The translations under genes and the position numbers were made by a program. The notes under the pieces were generated by a model, which was not told the origin of the DNA, made no database searches, and saw only the letters and a program-made list of their open reading frames with translations. DNA of 64,000 bases, taken from Allobosea thiooxidans (GTDB lineage: Bacteria > Pseudomonadota > Alphaproteobacteria > Rhizobiales > Beijerinckiaceae). Below, one piece after another: positions 29,978 through 62,424 of the stretch (position 1 is the stretch's first letter; each line of letters begins with the position of its first letter). The DNA is taken from the NCBI RefSeq assembly GCF_900168195.1, contig NZ_FUYX01000007.1, positions 62,001-126,000 of the forward strand, read 5' to 3'.

Positions 29978-30316
29978 TCAGGCCGCACAGTCCAGGCGCG
30001 CAATGGCGGCCCGCGCCTCGGCCGCCGCGAGCGCCAGCGCATCCATGGCAGCCTCGCTCACCCCATGCGCCGGCCCAGCCAGGCCGAGCTCGATCCGGTC
30101 CGCTGCCTCCGCCACCTGCCAGGCGCCGACCGCCCGGGCCGCTCCCTTGAGGGTGTGGGCGGCTTCCAGCCTCGTCTGCGTGTCGGCGCTGCCATGGATG
30201 GTGCGCAGATGCGCGGCGCATTGCTGGGCGAAAAGCGCAAGGAGCTCCCGCTCCAGTTCGTGGTCGCCGCCGGTCTGGCGCGACAGATAGGCGATATCGA
30301 TGGCGGTGGCCGACAT
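29978..30316 (-). CDS. Single-domain Hpt phosphotransfer protein
   Basis: This 112-residue, all-helical protein consists of one Hpt domain. The phosphoacceptor is H54 in EAAHTLKGAARAVGA. The ATG at 30316 is chosen; an upstream in-frame ATG at 30445 would add 43 residues that do not look like protein. It would relay phosphate between a hybrid kinase and a response regulator. No kinase or regulator is adjacent. It is divergent from the giant GPR/RgsE-like gene with a 256-bp gap, which raises the question of a cell-cycle or polarity link. ChpT-like function is not implied, because ChpT has a different fold. Confidence 0.88.
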   Translation of the reverse strand: MSATAIDIAYLSRQTGGDHELERELLALFAQQCAAHLRTIHGSADTQTRLEAAHTLKGAARAVGAWQVAEAADRIELGLAGPAHGVSEAAMDALALAAAEARAAIARLDCAA

Positions 30317-30393
30317 GGACGCAACTCGCGAAACGCTTGGATATGACACCGCCGCGCGGGCGGCTCGACCCCATTCAGGAAGCGCCCCGATGG

Positions 30394-30409
30394 TAAACGA
30401 GGCGTTAAC
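30394..30409. promoter_or_regulatory. Possible CtrA-like site
   Basis: TAAA-N7-TTAAC in the divergent gap between the Hpt and GPR-like genes is one mismatch from the CtrA consensus TTAA-N7-TTAA. A single near match in 256 bp can arise by chance, so this is only a pointer. Confidence 0.2.
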
Positions 30410-30572
30410 GACGTTTGTGAATCGAGCACTCAAATGGGTTTCCAACGTTCCGGGGCTCCACTACCCTTTCAATTGGTAAATGATGGGCGCAGTGTCTCCG
30501 ATCATCCCGGCCAGAGGCGGCGGGGCGACGGGACATCCGTTGCGCCCGTCTCAGTAGCGTGGCGAGGCGGCA

Positions 30573-33500
30573 ATGAATCGACCCAAGAAGCTCCAGGATC
30601 CCACTGAAGCTGCGATGTCGGCGATCGAGGAGGCGCTCCGCCTCGACCAGCCCAAGGGCGAAACGGAAACGCCGGTAGAGGCCGAGCCGAGACTGCCCGC
30701 CACCAGCGAGAACGATCTGAGGCTCGAGCTTCCCCGCGTCGAGCCGGCCGCGGCAGCCCCGGCCCAGGCGGCGAGCTCCCAGCCGACGCAGCCACGCGCC
30801 AGCATCCAGCCCGACACCAGCCGCGTCGCCAATGACGACCGGCGCGATTCAAGCTCCCTCGTCCAGGCCTTCTCGGTTCGCCCCGCGCGCAAGCCCTACT
30901 GGTTCGCTGCCCTCGCCTCCCTCGCCTGGCTCGGCGGCGCCGCCTTCGTCCTGCTCGGTCGCTTCGGTTCGTTCAGCAACGGCCTGCCCGAGCCGATCGC
31001 CAATTTCGGCATCGGCGAGTGGACCCTGCTTGTCCTGTCGATCGGCGCGCCGGTCGTGTTCTTCTTCGTCCTGGCGGCGCTCTATCGCCGCACGCAGGAA
31101 ATGCGCCTGATCTCGCGCGCGATGACCGAGGTCGCGCTGCGCCTCGCCGAGCCCGAGGTCGCCGGCGCCGATTCCGTGCTGTCGCTCAGCCAGACCATCC
31201 GCCGCGAGGTCGCCGCCATGGGCGACGGCATCGAGCGCGCAGTGGCTCGCGCGGGCGAGCTGGAGACGATCGTGCGCGGCGAGATCTCGACGCTCGAGCG
31301 CGCCTATGCCGACAACGAGATCCGCCTGCGTTCCCTGATCGACGAGCTCGTCACCCAGCGCGAAGCCGTGGTCGGCAATGCCGAGCGCGTGAAGCTCGCG
31401 ATCAGCGGCGCCCATGACGGGCTCGCCAAGGACCTCGACAGCGCCAGCCGCGCCATCGCGGAAGCCGTCGCCCAGGCGGGCGACCGGGTCACCGGCTCGC
31501 TCGGCGCCAAGGGCGACCAGATCACCCAGGCGCTCGGCCGCGCCGGCGAGCGGATGGTCGAGGAGATCAGCGGCCGCGGGCACGATCTCGTCGAACGCCT
31601 CCAGATCACCTCCGGCGAAGTCTCGGAGCGCCTGGCCGGAGCCAGCGACAACCTCTCGACGATGCTCGACGGCCGCGCCAAGGAGATCGCCGGCTCTCTG
31701 GAGCGCACCGGCGCCGCGCTGACCGACGGGCTGACCAGCAGCGCCCAGGGCGTCACCCGCGCCATCAGCGAGACCGGGATGCAGGTGGCAGAGACGCTCA
31801 CCAGCCGGGTCGAGACCGTCAACGAGACGCTGAAGGCGACTGGCGAGACCCTCGCCAAGGACATCTCCGCGCGCGGCAGCGAGGCCGCGGAGCGGTTCGA
31901 GACCAGCAGCCGCAACATGGTCTCGCTCATCGAAAGCCAGAGCGAAGCCCTGCAGAAGCGACTGGCCGAATCCGGAGAGGCGCTGCGCAGCGCCCTCTCC
32001 GACGAAGGCGAGAGCGTCACCACGCGGCTGGCCGAGGTCGGGCGCGGCGTCAACAGCCTGCTCAACCGCCAGAACGAAGCCATCGCCACGCGCCTCACCG
32101 AGGTCGGCGAGAGCGTCCACGCCCTGATCGGCACCCATGGCGACACGCTGGTCGGCCGCCTCAACGACACCGCCCGCACCGTCGACGACGTGCTGCGCGA
32201 GCGCAGCGAGGCGATCATCCTGCGCGTCAACGACGCCAGCCAGACCCTGAGCGAAACCGTCGAGAAGCACGGCGACACGCTGACCAGCCGCATCACCGAC
32301 GTCGCGGGCCAGGTCCACGGCCTCTTTACCGAACAGGGCGGCAAGCTCGTCGACCGCCTCAGCGAGACCGGCGAGACGGTCCACACCCTGCTCGACCAGC
32401 AGGCCGAGAAGCTGGTCGGCCGCGTCTCCAGCGCCGGGCAGGAGCTCACCGTCCTGGTCGGGGAGCAGAGCGACACCGTCGTCACCCGCGTCGCGACCGC
32501 GGGCGCCGATGTCGCCAAGCTGCTGTCGGAGCGCAGCGAGGCCCTGGTCGCCAGCGTCTCGGGCGCCGTCAACACCGTCGAGACCCGCCTGCGGGACGAG
32601 AGCGACCTGCTGGTCAACCGCCTCACCCAGGCCGGCCAGGAGGTCAGCAACGTCGTCGGCAACGAGAGCCAGCGCCTGATCTCCGGCCTGTCGGAGACCG
32701 GCATGCGCGTCAGCGCGCTGCTCGAGGAACAGGCCGGCGCGATGACCGTCAAGGTTTCGCAGGCCGGGCTCGAGATCAAGGATCTGCTCGGCAGCGAGAG
32801 CCAGGCCCTGGCCAGCCGCGTCGCCGATGTCGGCCGCTCGGTGCATGGCATCCTGGCCGAGCGCAGCAATGCCCTGATCTCCCGTCTCGCCGAGACCGGC
32901 GAGAGCATCGACCAGAAGCTGGAGGAGCGCGGCATGGCTCTCGCCAGCCGCATCACCGACAGCGTCGGTGCCGCCCAGAGCGCTCTGGAGCAGCAGCAGA
33001 CCGGCTTCCTCGCCAGCATCGGCGAGACCAGCGACAAGGTCGGCGTCCTCCTCGGCGAGCAGCGCGAGACGATGGTCCGCGACCTCGTCAGCGCCGGCCG
33101 CGAGGTCCACACCCTGCTCGGCGAGCAGAGCGAGGAGCTGGCGCGCCGCATGACCGAGGCGACCCACACCCTCACCGAGACGATCAATGTCGACGGCCGC
33201 CATGTCGCCGACCGCGTCGTCGAGGCGACGCAGGGCCTGCGCGACACCTTCACCGTCCATGCCGAGGAGGCCCGCGGCCTGCTCGCCGGCACCGGCCGCG
33301 AGATCGTGCTGGCCCTCACCCAGCAGGGCGGCCGCGTCAACGAGGCGCTGTCGGCCAATGCCGAGTCGATGCTGCGTTCGGTCGAGGGCCGCGCCCAGGC
33401 GCTGACCGAGGCGCTCGCGCTGCGCCACGACGCGCTGACCCGCCTCTTCGACGAGCGTGGCCGCGAGATCGAAACCGCTCTCGGCTCGCGGATGGCGACG

Positions 33501-36500
33501 CTGGCGACGCTGTTCGACACCCAGGGCCGCGAGATCGACGTCGCGCTCGGCGATCGCCTCGCTGCCCTGTCGACCTTGTTCGACACCCAGGGCCGCGACG
33601 TCGAAGCCGCACTCGGCGCCCGCCTCGCCGCCTTCGAGGACCTGATCGTCCATCAGGGTGGCGCGCTGACGGCCAAGATCTCGGGCGATGCCCGCGAGCT
33701 GAGCGACGCGCTGCATAGCGGCATCGCCCAGGTCGAGAAGCTGATCTCCGAGGATGGCGTCTCGCTGGCCGACAAGGTCGGCACGCGAGCTCTGGAAGCG
33801 GCCGAACTCCTCGCCAACCGCACTCGCGAGGCGGCTGACGCGATGGAATCGCAGATCAAGCTGTTCGAGGATCGCTCGGGCGCCAAGAGCGCCGAGATCG
33901 CCGGCGCGCTCGACAGCCTGATCGCACGCATCGACGGCAGCCTCGGCTCGCGCGCCACGGCGCTGAACGAGGCGCTGGTCGAGCGCACCGTCGACATCGC
34001 CCGCGTGCTCGCCGAGGGTGGCCGCGAGGTCACCAAGGCGCTGGCCGCCAAGGCGGACGAGATCGGCGAGGTCGTCACCTCGAAGAGCGAGTCGCTCACG
34101 CGCACGCTCAGCGACAAGGCCGACACCATCAATGCGACGCTGGGCGGCCGCGCCCTCCAGATCGCCGATACGCTCGACCAGAGCGTGGCCCGCTTCGAGG
34201 AGCGCGTCGTCAACCGGCTCGATACCGTCTCGCATACGCTCGACAGCCGTGGTGACGAGATCGCCGCCACGCTGCAGAGTCGCTCCGAGGCGATCGCGGC
34301 GGCGCTCGCCGAGCGGGCGCAGGAGCTGCGCGCCCTCTTCGACAACCAGGGCAACGGCATGGTCTCGGCGCTGGCCGGGCAGAGCGAAGCCATCGCGGCG
34401 GCGCTCACCGAACGGGCCGAGCAGCTGCGCACTCTGTTCGACGATCGCGGGCTCGGCATCGTCGCCGCGCTCGGCCGCCGCGGCGACGCCATCACGGGGG
34501 CGCTCGACCAGCGCGCCGAGCAGCTGCGCACGATCTTCGAGGACCAGGGCACCGGCGTCGTCACCGCCCTCGAGCGCCAGGGCACGGCGATCGCGAACAC
34601 GCTGGAAGAGCGCTCCGACGCGCTGCGCGCCGCCTTCGAGGCCAGGGGCCAGAGCCTCGTCGAGGTGCTCGGGCATCAGGGCGAGACGCTCACCCAGTCG
34701 CTCGACCAGCGGGTCGAGGCCCTGCGGGCTGTCTTCGATGCCAAGGGCAACGGCGCCGTCGAGGCGCTGAGCCAGCGCGGCGAGGCACTGGCCGCCGAGT
34801 TCGCCACGGTCGGCGAGACGGTGGTGCGGTCGCTCGAGAGCCGCGGTAACGCCATCGTCGCCGGCCTGCGCGACCGTGGCGCAGCCATCGCCAGCGCGGT
34901 CGAGGCTTCGTCCAACGCCCTGCGCGAGACGCTGGAAGCCGGCTCGAAGCAGTCGCTTGACGCCCTGCTCGGCACGAACGAGCAGCTGCGCGAGGAGCTG
35001 GGCGGCATGCTTGGCCGCCTCGGCGAGGCCAACAAGCTGATGCAGCAGATCGTCAACGGCGCGAACAAGAACCTCGCCGCCGTCGAGAACGGCCTGTCGA
35101 ACCGCGTCGGCGAACTGCAGAACGTGATCGGCACGGTGATGGCAGAGGCCGGCAACGCCTCGCAGCAGGTCACCAGCCAGATCGCCGAGCTCAAGAGCTT
35201 CTCGGAAGGGACGCTGCGCGAGACGACGGCGCTGATCGCGCAACTCGACGACCGCGGCAGCTCGCTGAACGAGGCGACGCAGGCCAGCTCCGCCGCGCTC
35301 AACGCGGTGGCCGGCCGGCTCGAGCAGATCGAGGCGCGCGTCGGCAAGGCGCTGGCCGAGCGCCGCGACGCGCTCGAGCAGCTCCACAGCCTCATCGCCA
35401 GCCGCACCGACGACGTCGAGACGATCACCCGGTCCTTCGCCTCGCTGATCGACGAATCGCTCGGCAGCGCCGAAGCGCGGGCGCGCCAGATCGGCGCCGT
35501 GCTCTCCGACTCGGCCGAGTCGACCACGAGCGCGATCGCCCAGCAGTTCGAGTCGATCCGGAGCGCCACCGGCAAGGAGCGCGAGCGCACCGCGGAAGCC
35601 CTGCGCGCCGCCTATTCCCAGGTCTCGGACGAGATCGGCGGCGAGCTTGCGAAGGTGACCGAGCGCTTCCAGAAGGCGGCGCAGGACATGCGCGGCATCA
35701 CCGGCGACATCCAGCGCGAGCTGGAGGCGACGCGCGCCGAGCTCAAGCGCGGCGTGCTGGAGCTGCCGCAGGAGGCGCAGGAATCGACCTCGGCCATGCG
35801 CCGAGTCGTGGCCGAGCAGATCAAGGCGCTGAACGACCTCTCCGAAATCGTGACGCGGGCCGGCCGGCGCGGCGATGTCTCGCTGCCGATCGAGGCGATC
35901 GCGAGCCGGCGTGGCAGCGCCGGCGCAACGGCCACCGCCCCTGCCCCGCAGCCAGCCCCGGTCATGGCGCCGAAGCCGGCAGCGGCCGAGGAGCCGCTGC
36001 TGCGGCCTTCGCTGGACGCGACCGCCGAGGCTTCGCGCGGCGCAGCCGCCCCTGCCCCGAGCCGCCCGGCTCCGGCACAGGAGGCCCCGCGCCGCCAGCC
36101 GGAGGCTCCGTCGCAGCAGCAGCCGGCCAAGGCAGGCTGGCTCTCGGACCTGCTCAGCCGCGCCTCGCGCGACGACAAGCCGGAGCCGAGCAAGCCGACG
36201 ACGCACTCGATCGAGAAACTCGACTCGCTCTCCGTCGACATCGCGCGGATGATCGACCATGACGCGGCCGTCGAGCTCTGGGACCGCTACAAGCGCGGCG
36301 AGCGCAACGTCTTCACGCGCCGGCTCTACACGCTGCAGGGCCAGCAGACCTTCGACGAGATCCGCCGCAAGTACCGTCGCGACTCGGAGTTCAAGGAGAC
36401 CGTCGACCGCTATATCGACGAGTTCGAGCGCCTGCTCGGCGAGGCCGCCAAGGACGACCGCGACTCGATGGTGGCGAAGACCTACCTGACCTCCGAGACC

Positions 36501-36548
36501 GGCAAGGTCTACACCATGCTGGCCCATGCCAGCGGGCGCTTCGAGTAA
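30573..36548 (+). CDS. Giant GPR/RgsE-like polar-growth protein with 54 hendecad-pair repeats
   Basis: This protein has 1991 residues. The N-terminal 105 residues are Pro/Ala-rich and probably cytoplasmic. Two membrane segments follow (about 109-129 and 150-171). A helical entry region leads into 54 consecutive 22-residue repeats (287-1474) with no insertion or deletion. Each repeat is two 11-residue units with hydrophobic positions 2, 9, 13 and 20 and small residues at 6 and 17. More coiled coil runs to about 1775, then a Pro/Ala/Gln-rich linker to about 1878, then a conserved-looking C-terminal domain (about 1880-1991, IARMIDHDAAVELWDRYKRGE). Size, membrane anchor and apolipoprotein-like repeats match GROWTH POLE RING protein of Agrobacterium and RgsE of Sinorhizobium, which form a ring at the growing pole. 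The assignment rests on architecture. Confidence 0.8.
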   Translation: MNRPKKLQDPTEAAMSAIEEALRLDQPKGETETPVEAEPRLPATSENDLRLELPRVEPAAAAPAQAASSQPTQPRASIQPDTSRVANDDRRDSSSLVQAFSVRPARKPYWFAALASLAWLGGAAFVLLGRFGSFSNGLPEPIANFGIGEWTLLVLSIGAPVVFFFVLAALYRRTQEMRLISRAMTEVALRLAEPEVAGADSVLSLSQTIRREVAAMGDGIERAVARAGELETIVRGEISTLERAYADNEIRLRSLIDELVTQREAVVGNAERVKLAISGAHDGLAKDLDSASRAIAEAVAQAGDRVTGSLGAKGDQITQALGRAGERMVEEISGRGHDLVERLQITSGEVSERLAGASDNLSTMLDGRAKEIAGSLERTGAALTDGLTSSAQGVTRAISETGMQVAETLTSRVETVNETLKATGETLAKDISARGSEAAERFETSSRNMVSLIESQSEALQKRLAESGEALRSALSDEGESVTTRLAEVGRGVNSLLNRQNEAIATRLTEVGESVHALIGTHGDTLVGRLNDTARTVDDVLRERSEAIILRVNDASQTLSETVEKHGDTLTSRITDVAGQVHGLFTEQGGKLVDRLSETGETVHTLLDQQAEKLVGRVSSAGQELTVLVGEQSDTVVTRVATAGADVAKLLSERSEALVASVSGAVNTVETRLRDESDLLVNRLTQAGQEVSNVVGNESQRLISGLSETGMRVSALLEEQAGAMTVKVSQAGLEIKDLLGSESQALASRVADVGRSVHGILAERSNALISRLAETGESIDQKLEERGMALASRITDSVGAAQSALEQQQTGFLASIGETSDKVGVLLGEQRETMVRDLVSAGREVHTLLGEQSEELARRMTEATHTLTETINVDGRHVADRVVEATQGLRDTFTVHAEEARGLLAGTGREIVLALTQQGGRVNEALSANAESMLRSVEGRAQALTEALALRHDALTRLFDERGREIETALGSRMATLATLFDTQGREIDVALGDRLAALSTLFDTQGRDVEAALGARLAAFEDLIVHQGGALTAKISGDARELSDALHSGIAQVEKLISEDGVSLADKVGTRALEAAELLANRTREAADAMESQIKLFEDRSGAKSAEIAGALDSLIARIDGSLGSRATALNEALVERTVDIARVLAEGGREVTKALAAKADEIGEVVTSKSESLTRTLSDKADTINATLGGRALQIADTLDQSVARFEERVVNRLDTVSHTLDSRGDEIAATLQSRSEAIAAALAERAQELRALFDNQGNGMVSALAGQSEAIAAALTERAEQLRTLFDDRGLGIVAALGRRGDAITGALDQRAEQLRTIFEDQGTGVVTALERQGTAIANTLEERSDALRAAFEARGQSLVEVLGHQGETLTQSLDQRVEALRAVFDAKGNGAVEALSQRGEALAAEFATVGETVVRSLESRGNAIVAGLRDRGAAIASAVEASSNALRETLEAGSKQSLDALLGTNEQLREELGGMLGRLGEANKLMQQIVNGANKNLAAVENGLSNRVGELQNVIGTVMAEAGNASQQVTSQIAELKSFSEGTLRETTALIAQLDDRGSSLNEATQASSAALNAVAGRLEQIEARVGKALAERRDALEQLHSLIASRTDDVETITRSFASLIDESLGSAEARARQIGAVLSDSAESTTSAIAQQFESIRSATGKERERTAEALRAAYSQVSDEIGGELAKVTERFQKAAQDMRGITGDIQRELEATRAELKRGVLELPQEAQESTSAMRRVVAEQIKALNDLSEIVTRAGRRGDVSLPIEAIASRRGSAGATATAPAPQPAPVMAPKPAAAEEPLLRPSLDATAEASRGAAAPAPSRPAPAQEAPRRQPEAPSQQQPAKAGWLSDLLSRASRDDKPEPSKPTTHSIEKLDSLSVDIARMIDHDAAVELWDRYKRGERNVFTRRLYTLQGQQTFDEIRRKYRRDSEFKETVDRYIDEFERLLGEAAKDDRDSMVAKTYLTSETGKVYTMLAHASGRFE
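31431..34994 (+). repeat. 66-bp coding periodicity (54 units) inside the giant gene
   Basis: Within the reading frame, blocks such as RLSETGETVHTLLDQQAEKLVG split at residue 22 recur at exact 66-bp steps from 31431 to 34994. I checked the register against the nucleotides at 31431, 32091, 33411, 34269 and 34929. The units are diverged in DNA, so this is conserved protein geometry and not a recent tandem expansion. Confidence 0.9.
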
Positions 36549-61488: not shown

Positions 61489-62424
61489 TCAAACCGGGGA
61501 GACGGCGCCCTTGCGCTCGACGATCAGGCCGTAGGCCTGGGGCTCGCGATGCCTGGCGAAATTGAAGGTGGAGTCCTTATAGCTCTTTCCCAGGTCCATG
61601 TCGCAACGGGCGACGACGAGTTCGTCGCCCTCGGTCACGGCCTGCGCCACGACCTCGCCGGTCGGCGCGATGATGCAGGAGCCGCCGATCTGGTCGACGC
61701 CGGCCTCGAGCCCCGCCTTGGCGACGCCGACGACCCAGGTGGCGTTCTGGTAGGCACCGGCCTGCATCACGAGCTGGTTGTGGAAATTGCCGAGCCGGTC
61801 ATGGTCCGGCGCCGGCGGATTGTGCTTGGGCGTATTGTAGCCGAGCACGATCAGCTCGACGTCCTGCAGGCCCATCGCGCGGTAGCTCTCGGGCCAGCGG
61901 CGATCGTTGCAGATCATCATGCCGATATTGGCGTCCATCGTCCGCCAGACCGGCCAGCCGAGCTCGCCGGTCTCGAAATAGCGCTTCTCGAGATTCTGGA
62001 AGGGCGCGGCGGGGCGGTGCTCCGGGTGGCCCGGCAGATGGATCTTGCGATACTTGCCGACGATCGTGCCTGACTTGTCGACCAGGATCGCGGTGTTGAA
62101 GCGGCGCTTGCGGCCTTCCTCGAAGGCGAGCTCGCAATAACCGAGATGGAAGCCGACACCGAGACGCTTGCTCTCCTCGAACAGCGGCGCCGTCTCGTTG
62201 GAGGGCATCGCCGTCTCGAAATGGCTGTCGATCTCGGCCTCGTCGTCGATCCACCAATGCGGGAAGAAGGCCGTGAGGGCCGCCTCCGGATAAACGACGA
62301 GATCGGCGCCATGCCCCTTCGCCTGCCGCATCAGCTCGACCATGCGGGCAACGGCCGAGGCCCGGCTTTCATCGCGCTGGATCGGACCGAGCTGGGCAGC
62401 GGCAACGGTGAGGATGCGGGTCAC
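61489..62424 (-). CDS. N-carbamoyl-D-amino-acid hydrolase
   Basis: This 311-residue nitrilase-superfamily enzyme starts at the GTG at 62424, with GGAG six bases upstream. With that start the catalytic triad is E47, K127 and C172, which is the same numbering as in the Agrobacterium D-carbamoylase. Neighbouring blocks also match (FNTAILVDKSG, YRKIHLPGHPE, ICNDRRWPE, PAPDHDRLGNFHN). It cleaves N-carbamoyl-D-amino acids to D-amino acids, CO2 and ammonia, the last step of D-hydantoin use. No hydantoinase is visible, although one may lie beyond the window. A hairpin (62475-62495) separates it from the permease genes. Confidence 0.94.
   Translation of the reverse strand: MTRILTVAAAQLGPIQRDESRASAVARMVELMRQAKGHGADLVVYPEAALTAFFPHWWIDDEAEIDSHFETAMPSNETAPLFEESKRLGVGFHLGYCELAFEEGRKRRFNTAILVDKSGTIVGKYRKIHLPGHPEHRPAAPFQNLEKRYFETGELGWPVWRTMDANIGMMICNDRRWPESYRAMGLQDVELIVLGYNTPKHNPPAPDHDRLGNFHNQLVMQAGAYQNATWVVGVAKAGLEAGVDQIGGSCIIAPTGEVVAQAVTEGDELVVARCDMDLGKSYKDSTFNFARHREPQAYGLIVERKGAVSPV

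Follow-up and report, generated by a model that had tools for sequence, protein, structure and literature searches.

A window of 64,000 nucleotides from Allobosea thiooxidans (positions 62,001 to 126,000 of contig NZ_FUYX01000007.1, in an assembly of 5.37 Mb and 34 contigs) contains a gene for a giant protein of 1991 residues, related to the polar growth proteins GPR of Agrobacterium tumefaciens and RgsE of Sinorhizobium meliloti, in which 1203 residues form a tandem array of short repeats in a single register. This locus raises the question of what is maintained in such an array, the number of repeats or their register. A preliminary description of this DNA had proposed that the repeat number is under selection and that the array could set a distance at the growing pole. 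Judged from its orthologues, however, the register is conserved and the repeat number is free. Polar growth in Hyphomicrobiales depends centrally on GPR/RgsE, whose helical bulk has so far been treated as apolipoprotein-like domains; the register rule is a concrete constraint on this bulk, as whole hendecads (units of 11 residues) or shifts of 4 or 7 residues are tolerated. The protein family is known, and the rule is apparently undescribed: no description was found in the literature searched (which did not cover Walshaw 2010 or the 2019 GPR paper), and the text of PMC8262873 contains none of the words 'repeat', 'amphipathic', 'hendecad', '11-residue' or '22-residue'.

The division of residues 287-1474 into exactly 54 gap-free blocks of 22, as first described, was confirmed. 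Large hydrophobic residues fill block columns 2, 9, 13 and 20 in 98%, 93%, 100% and 94% of cases, and Gly, Ala or Ser columns 6 and 17 in 81% and 80%, again as had been noted. The autocorrelation of hydrophobicity is 0.55-0.67 at lags of 11, 22, 33, 44, 55 and 66 residues (at most 0.12 in 500 shuffles), and the Fourier peak at 3.665 residues agrees with the 11/3 period claimed earlier. Profiles built from either half of the array scored the remaining half positively in the correct phase only. A hidden Markov model (HMM) places the array slightly beyond the blocks, at residues 276-1478, as a single run, the longest runs in ten shuffles of the whole protein being 16-34 residues. The pattern is weak around residues 1095-1119, and block 38 has Ser in column 2; with a cheaper entry cost the model skips this stretch and resumes in the same phase (offset 0), and the cheapest jump settings cut the array into three pieces.

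The structural unit is 11 residues, not 22, because sliding the 22-column profile by 11 costs almost nothing (167 versus 166 and 181 versus 159 bits) and because the number of units is odd in some orthologues and even in others. Twenty-two residues (66 bp) look like the unit of DNA duplication: the self-similarity of the DNA peaks at multiples of 66 bp, and tandem repeats of 66 and 99 bp are present. On an 11/3 helical wheel positions 9, 2 and 6 of the hendecad are adjacent, at 65, 98 and 131 degrees, and form a narrow seam; such a seam runs nearly straight along an alpha-helix. Counted per hendecad in the window, position 2 is large in 99% of units (almost always Leu, Val, Ile or Phe), position 9 is large in 94%, and position 6 is Gly, Ala or Ser in 81%. 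In the 16 orthologues listed position 2 is large in 97-100% and Ala or Gly in at most 1%, figures that are partly circular, as the seam phases were set with the profile of the window. Bosea arrays contain about 10% Gly.

Array length was measured as the distance between two conserved flanking anchors, which needs no repeat model. In 31 other complete orthologues of the Bosea clade the arrays hold 89-130 units in 21 distinct lengths, 29 of which loci have an exact multiple of 11 residues and two (L046 and L059) a remainder of 7, each of these having lost 4 residues when set against its sisters. Exact multiples are also found in the three Chelatococcus loci (89, 91 and 94 units) and in four of five loci from metagenome-assembled genomes (MAGs; 60, 60, 64 and 75 units), the fifth (L088) leaving a remainder of 3 with a poor anchor. 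The 27 Microvirga-group loci leave a remainder of 10 (23 loci) or 6 (4 loci), two classes that lie 4 residues apart. Across other families the arrays range from almost none to about 147 units; 8 of 19 arrays in distant families are exact multiples of 11 and 11 are not (the remainder is 4 in S. meliloti RgsE), remainders that carry little weight, since the alignment of the C-terminal anchor falls into 2-7 blocks in these families. Ten of the loci L032-L111 were not counted because a contig end cuts their open reading frame (L032, L050, L064-L066, L068-L070, L074 and L111), and four because the search motif missed them (L090, L095, L096 and L100); L120 was omitted since the wrong frame had been chosen. 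The unit counts come from draft assemblies, in which tandem units could be miscounted.

The same tendency is seen in individual gaps. Among 33 close pairs with flank identity of at least 93%, the array carries 49 gaps, of which 43 are multiples of 11: 22 (16 gaps), 33 (8), 44 (12), 66 (6) and 88 (1) residues. The other six are all of 4 residues and trace to the lineages of L046 and L059; no gap of 11 residues occurs among the 49. In the low-complexity and C-terminal parts of the same pairs gaps of 1-11 residues are found, only 2 of 67 being multiples of 11, and the flanking helices have a single gap, of 3 residues. These counts are not of independent events, because pairs share branches. Unit number shifts by 2-8 hendecads at internal sites of the array. 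The preliminary description had expected neither freely varying repeat numbers nor indels among orthologues; the numbers do vary freely, whereas the indels enter only as whole units or as 4/7-residue shifts.

More distant relatives break the register. In 21 such loci (19 of the 20 one-per-family loci plus L140 and L141; L142, a near copy of L140, and the short, repeat-poor L143 were omitted) we counted 61 out-of-phase joins: +7 in 36, +10 in 8, +9 in 5, +6 in 4, +3 and +5 in 3 each, and +4 in 2. Of the 17 loci that show a break, 10 include a +7 join, L115 alone supplying nine. Artificial shifts of 1-10 residues were recovered by the detector without bias, with a single split call in 120, and in arrays degraded by 20-50% substitution it reported 399 joins, 393 in phase, three of 4 and three of 7. 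A +7 step, equivalent to -4, changes the spacing of seam residues from 7-4 to 7-7, so that the hydrophobic stripe stays continuous. Mixed heptad/hendecad coiled coils likewise keep a continuous stripe across 7-7 spacing.

The relationship to GPR/RgsE, proposed earlier from the letters alone, is borne out by homology and layout, by which the 1991-residue protein is an orthologue. The 2089-residue protein of S. meliloti Ak57, whose length is that published for RgsE, is identical to it at 80 of 113 positions of the C-terminal domain and at 60 of 112 of the juxtamembrane region. Both proteins have two predicted N-terminal transmembrane helices, a long Pro-free helical region with PF01442-like repeats (ten PF01442 stretches in the Allobosea protein of about 2000 residues), a low-complexity linker and the conserved C-terminal domain. 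They differ in that the Bosea array keeps one phase over 1203 residues, whereas the S. meliloti array, spanning 1119 residues without Pro, has its hendecads interrupted at several points, +7 and +10 being the usual steps. The S. meliloti gene (L140:3076-9345) is annotated as 'kinesin' in a 3.7-Mb record labelled pSymB; such labels can mislead.

The C-terminal domain was matched in all 61 genomes searched, which belong to the same genus or to related genera and families, and both this domain and a tree of the flanking regions place the nearest relatives in Bosea. In a sample of 289 alphaproteobacterial genomes, 107 contain a match to the C-terminal-domain profile, in open frames of very different length. 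A 774-residue relative is carried by a Sphingomonadales record. Strict hendecads are a trait of only part of this family: among 20 loci of the class sample the 3.665 period is strong in L156 and L157 and is 3.660 in L158, the range extends to 3.57-3.64, and L164, L165 and L175 encode short proteins (727-881 residues) with almost no array and an Hpt (histidine phosphotransfer) gene nearby. Homologues of RgsE, a cytoplasmic, membrane-anchored protein with the partners TolQ, RgsA and RgsS, have been named in Rhizobiales, Emcibacterales and Rhodospirillales (PMC7327166). Localisation at the growing pole and a requirement in polar growth are on published record only in A. tumefaciens and S. meliloti, and the pole function assumed here for the Bosea-type protein is carried over from these relatives.

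To explain a conserved register with a free length, we suggest, at a probability of about 0.5, that the array is a nearly untwisted helix that packs into multi-stranded rods and forms a scaffold at the growing pole. The two N-terminal helices would anchor the protein in the inner membrane, as published for RgsE, and the array would continue as one very long cytoplasmic alpha-helix with its seam kept on one side by the 11/3 repeat. Since the register is kept and the length is not, the constraint would be the continuity of the seam, and it is on the unbroken hydrophobic stripe that selection may act, as the indel pattern suggests. The seam could allow several copies to lie side by side. Sustained 11/3 hydrophobic periodicity, found here, is that of hendecad coiled coils, which are nearly untwisted and have one core residue at the bundle axis that must be small unless the oligomer is of higher order (PMC9858780); as 99% of units have a large residue in the middle of the seam, three or more helices would be favoured over a dimer. 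Rods radiating from the anchored ends would hold the C-terminal domain and partner proteins at the pole. The repeat number would drift through unequal exchange of DNA units encoding 22 and 33 residues, making the length adjustable. Such a mechanism is plausible. The published 50-nm foci were made with GFP fusions, of which the N-terminal one is the functional form; this label would mark the anchored ends, and the reach of a rod would be invisible in them. Deletions in A. tumefaciens GPR (residues 232-494 and 1036-1381, and coiled-coil deletions of 20 or 21 residues, one printed range being 22) are, except for the 22, not multiples of 11, so that, judged from the spans, domain loss and register loss may be confounded there.

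Several observations weigh against the rod. Register breaks occur in many families and in S. meliloti RgsE, and 25 of the 61 are not +7. A run-by-run count in the near set gave 5 (29 cases) and 10 (26) as the commonest non-zero offsets, mostly from Microvirga loci, where they represent few events that fall outside the 4/7 rule. Proteins with the GPR C-terminal domain also exist with periods of 3.57-3.64 or with almost no array, and repeat slippage alone yields unit-sized indels. For the first part of the protein AlphaFold2 predicts two helices, 193 and 128 residues long, and a break at protein residues 387-391 that is itself of low confidence, which lends no support to the single unbroken helix of 1188 residues that had been envisaged. 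Overall confidence in the arrangement of helices is low in both AlphaFold2 models (predicted template modelling scores of 0.26 and 0.37); neither model has a Foldseek match in the PDB below E 0.001.

The main rival, which we consider possible though clearly less probable, is a giant amphipathic helix lying along the inner membrane, or along lipid, at the pole, with the seam as its lipid-facing stripe. It too needs a continuous seam and predicts a kept register and free length equally well. The 11/3 period is typical of lipid-binding repeats, perilipin 4 (Plin4) having 29 tandem 33-residue repeats without indels (PMC5889406); the N-terminal profile matches human apolipoprotein A-IV in the PDB (E 2e-24); and the whole protein scores 227.9 bits with the PF01442 apolipoprotein model, above the curated cut-off of 90. 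The cut-off, however, is passed only by summing weak pieces (best 45.6 bits), none of which exceeds it in a whole-genome search, and of 14 unrelated control genomes 7 also gave matches to the model, below its cut-off. Of the 32 loci listed, 28 have a net charge of -4 to -9 per 100 array residues and four one of -0.5 to -3, unfavourable on an anionic membrane, and the seam is narrow, with just two large hydrophobic residues per 11. Plin4, when made net negative, left lipid droplets (PMC5889406). The negative charge and the narrow seam are why this helix is rated below the rod, although they are not decisive, as Plin4 itself is weakly hydrophobic. A bundle in which one chain folds back in antiparallel hairpins, with breaks or Gly-rich spots as turns, was proposed by the GPR authors by analogy with apolipoprotein A-IV; it agrees with the published 50-nm foci and SWISS-MODEL apolipoprotein A-IV-like models and with the AlphaFold2 break, but that break is of low confidence, the window array has no Pro and no regular turn signal, and free changes of 2-8 hendecads at internal sites suit a fixed hairpin layout poorly, which makes it unlikely.

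It is still less probable that the register is under no selection at all, unit-sized indels arising from exchange between similar repeats of 66 and 99 bp. The self-similarity of the DNA at multiples of 66 bp, the tandem repeats, and the preponderance of gaps of 22 and 44 residues with none of 11 in close pairs speak for such an origin. Against it, the low-complexity region of the same gene takes indels of 1-10 residues (65 of 67 gaps there), the sole non-unit array gaps in close pairs are of 4 residues, and +7 dominates in distant families. The flanking non-repetitive helices, too, are nearly free of indels, so intolerance is not special to the array. The least credible explanation is a molecular ruler, in which a fixed number of repeats sets a distance at the pole. 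An alpha-helix rises by 0.15 nm per residue. At this rise the array would be about 180 nm long, close to the 200 nm published for the ring, but neither the ruler nor the proposed selection on repeat number survives the 21 lengths within one clade, the span from almost none to about 147 units between families, or the sister loci L041/L044, L037/L043 and L057/L060, which differ by 2-3 units; drift by unequal exchange would likewise give an adjustable length, not a ruler. The Conclusions of PMC8262873 give 600 nm for an extended helical domain of 1,700 residues, which at the same rise would be about 255 nm.

Comparison with known systems shows partial resemblances. Apolipoprotein A-IV and PF01442, the best PDB sequence match, share tandem 22-residue amphipathic helices with the Allobosea protein, and differ from its far longer, predicted membrane-anchored array in proline, which punctuates apolipoprotein 22-mers and is absent from residues 276-1478. 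Descent from the PF01442 apolipoproteins is not supported by similarity this weak and scattered to a model that matches unrelated genomes. Plin4 has an array of about 1000 residues of 11-mers, also with no indels between units, but it is net positive (+1 per 33-mer), anchor-less and targeted to lipid droplets (PMC5889406), whereas the window array, at -64 over 1203 residues, lacks a near-neutral or positive face. A functional parallel may be Scy and FilP of Streptomyces, polar-growth and cell-division proteins with hendecad coiled-coil rods, that of Scy exceeding 1000 residues of almost nothing but hendecads; these dimerise, have cores rich in Ala and carry a DivIVA-like head (PMC9858780), while the axis position in the window array is large and a Pfam scan of the 1991-residue protein found no DivIVA-like head, so GPR would work like Scy/FilP without being a member. 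ZorA of the Zorya defence system has a long helical cytoplasmic tail under an inner-membrane domain, in a five-chain bundle (PMC11890865). Its tails match the Allobosea protein weakly in profile comparisons and have a period of about 3.64-3.68 in their middle, but along the tail the period drifts (about 3.7 to 3.5), and the tails lack long runs of hendecads in one phase. Membership in ZorA was rejected: the NCBIfam model scores 23.9 against a threshold of 250 bits, in the tail region only, and Pfam scans found no MotA/TolQ-type domain.

Coordinates of the features of the GPR-type locus (positions in the window)
Feature	Position	Strand	Remarks
GPR/RgsE-type gene	30573..36548	+	open reading frame of 1991 residues
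First hydrophobic (predicted transmembrane) helix, about residues 107-131	30891..30965	+	AlphaFold2 helix 13-37 (model numbering); hydropathy peaks starting at residue 109
Second hydrophobic (predicted transmembrane) helix, about residues 147-172	31011..31088	+	start of AlphaFold2 helix 53-98 (model numbering); hydropathy windows starting at residues 145-154
Conserved juxtamembrane region, residues 173-286	31089..31430	+	most columns that are invariant in the N-terminal alignment fall here
Hendecad array, residues 276-1478, about 109 units of 11	31398..35006	+	no proline; net charge -64
54 blocks of 22 residues (108 hendecads), residues 287-1474	31431..34994	+	split into blocks without a gap
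Post-array helical region, residues 1475-1790	34995..35942	+	sustained 11-residue register absent
Pro/Ala-rich low-complexity linker, residues 1791-1874	35943..36194	+	predicted largely disordered
Conserved C-terminal helical domain, 117 residues	36195..36545	+	hallmark for finding orthologues
Single-domain Hpt gene, divergent to GPR	29978..30445	-	PF01627, E 5.5e-9; motif HTLKG; start codon provisional

In the 1991-residue protein an N-terminal tail precedes the two hydrophobic helices. The juxtamembrane region forms a single ungapped block in all 31 Bosea-clade loci, whereas the linker carries numerous small indels between orthologues. All Pfam hits to the C-terminal domain are below the cut-off (CdiI_2, E 0.03).

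While the ruler is removed from consideration, the Hpt gene adds a possible phosphorelay partner. With the Hpt protein of the window as query, a divergent upstream Hpt frame was found at 59 of 88 orthologous loci: in the Bosea clade (31/31), Chelatococcus (3/3), the MAG loci (5/5), the one-per-family loci (17/19) and the Rhizobiaceae records (3/3), S. meliloti among them, and at none of the 27 Microvirga-group loci. It lies near GPR in 6 of 20 class-level loci, and the query missed an annotated Hpt gene at the GPR locus of a Sphingomonas record. A single literature search found no paper on such a pairing, and a partnership of Hpt with GPR is a guess from synteny. A more specific and doubtful picture would be a length-tunable, seam-locked rod of 3-6 helices that forms a straight cytoplasmic strut, similar to a ZorA tail, below the TolQ-associated growth-pole complex, with its assembly under an Hpt phosphorelay. 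Finally, an open frame of 1892 codons (30849-36527, minus strand) runs opposite the GPR gene, probably as a by-product of the repeats and codon composition.

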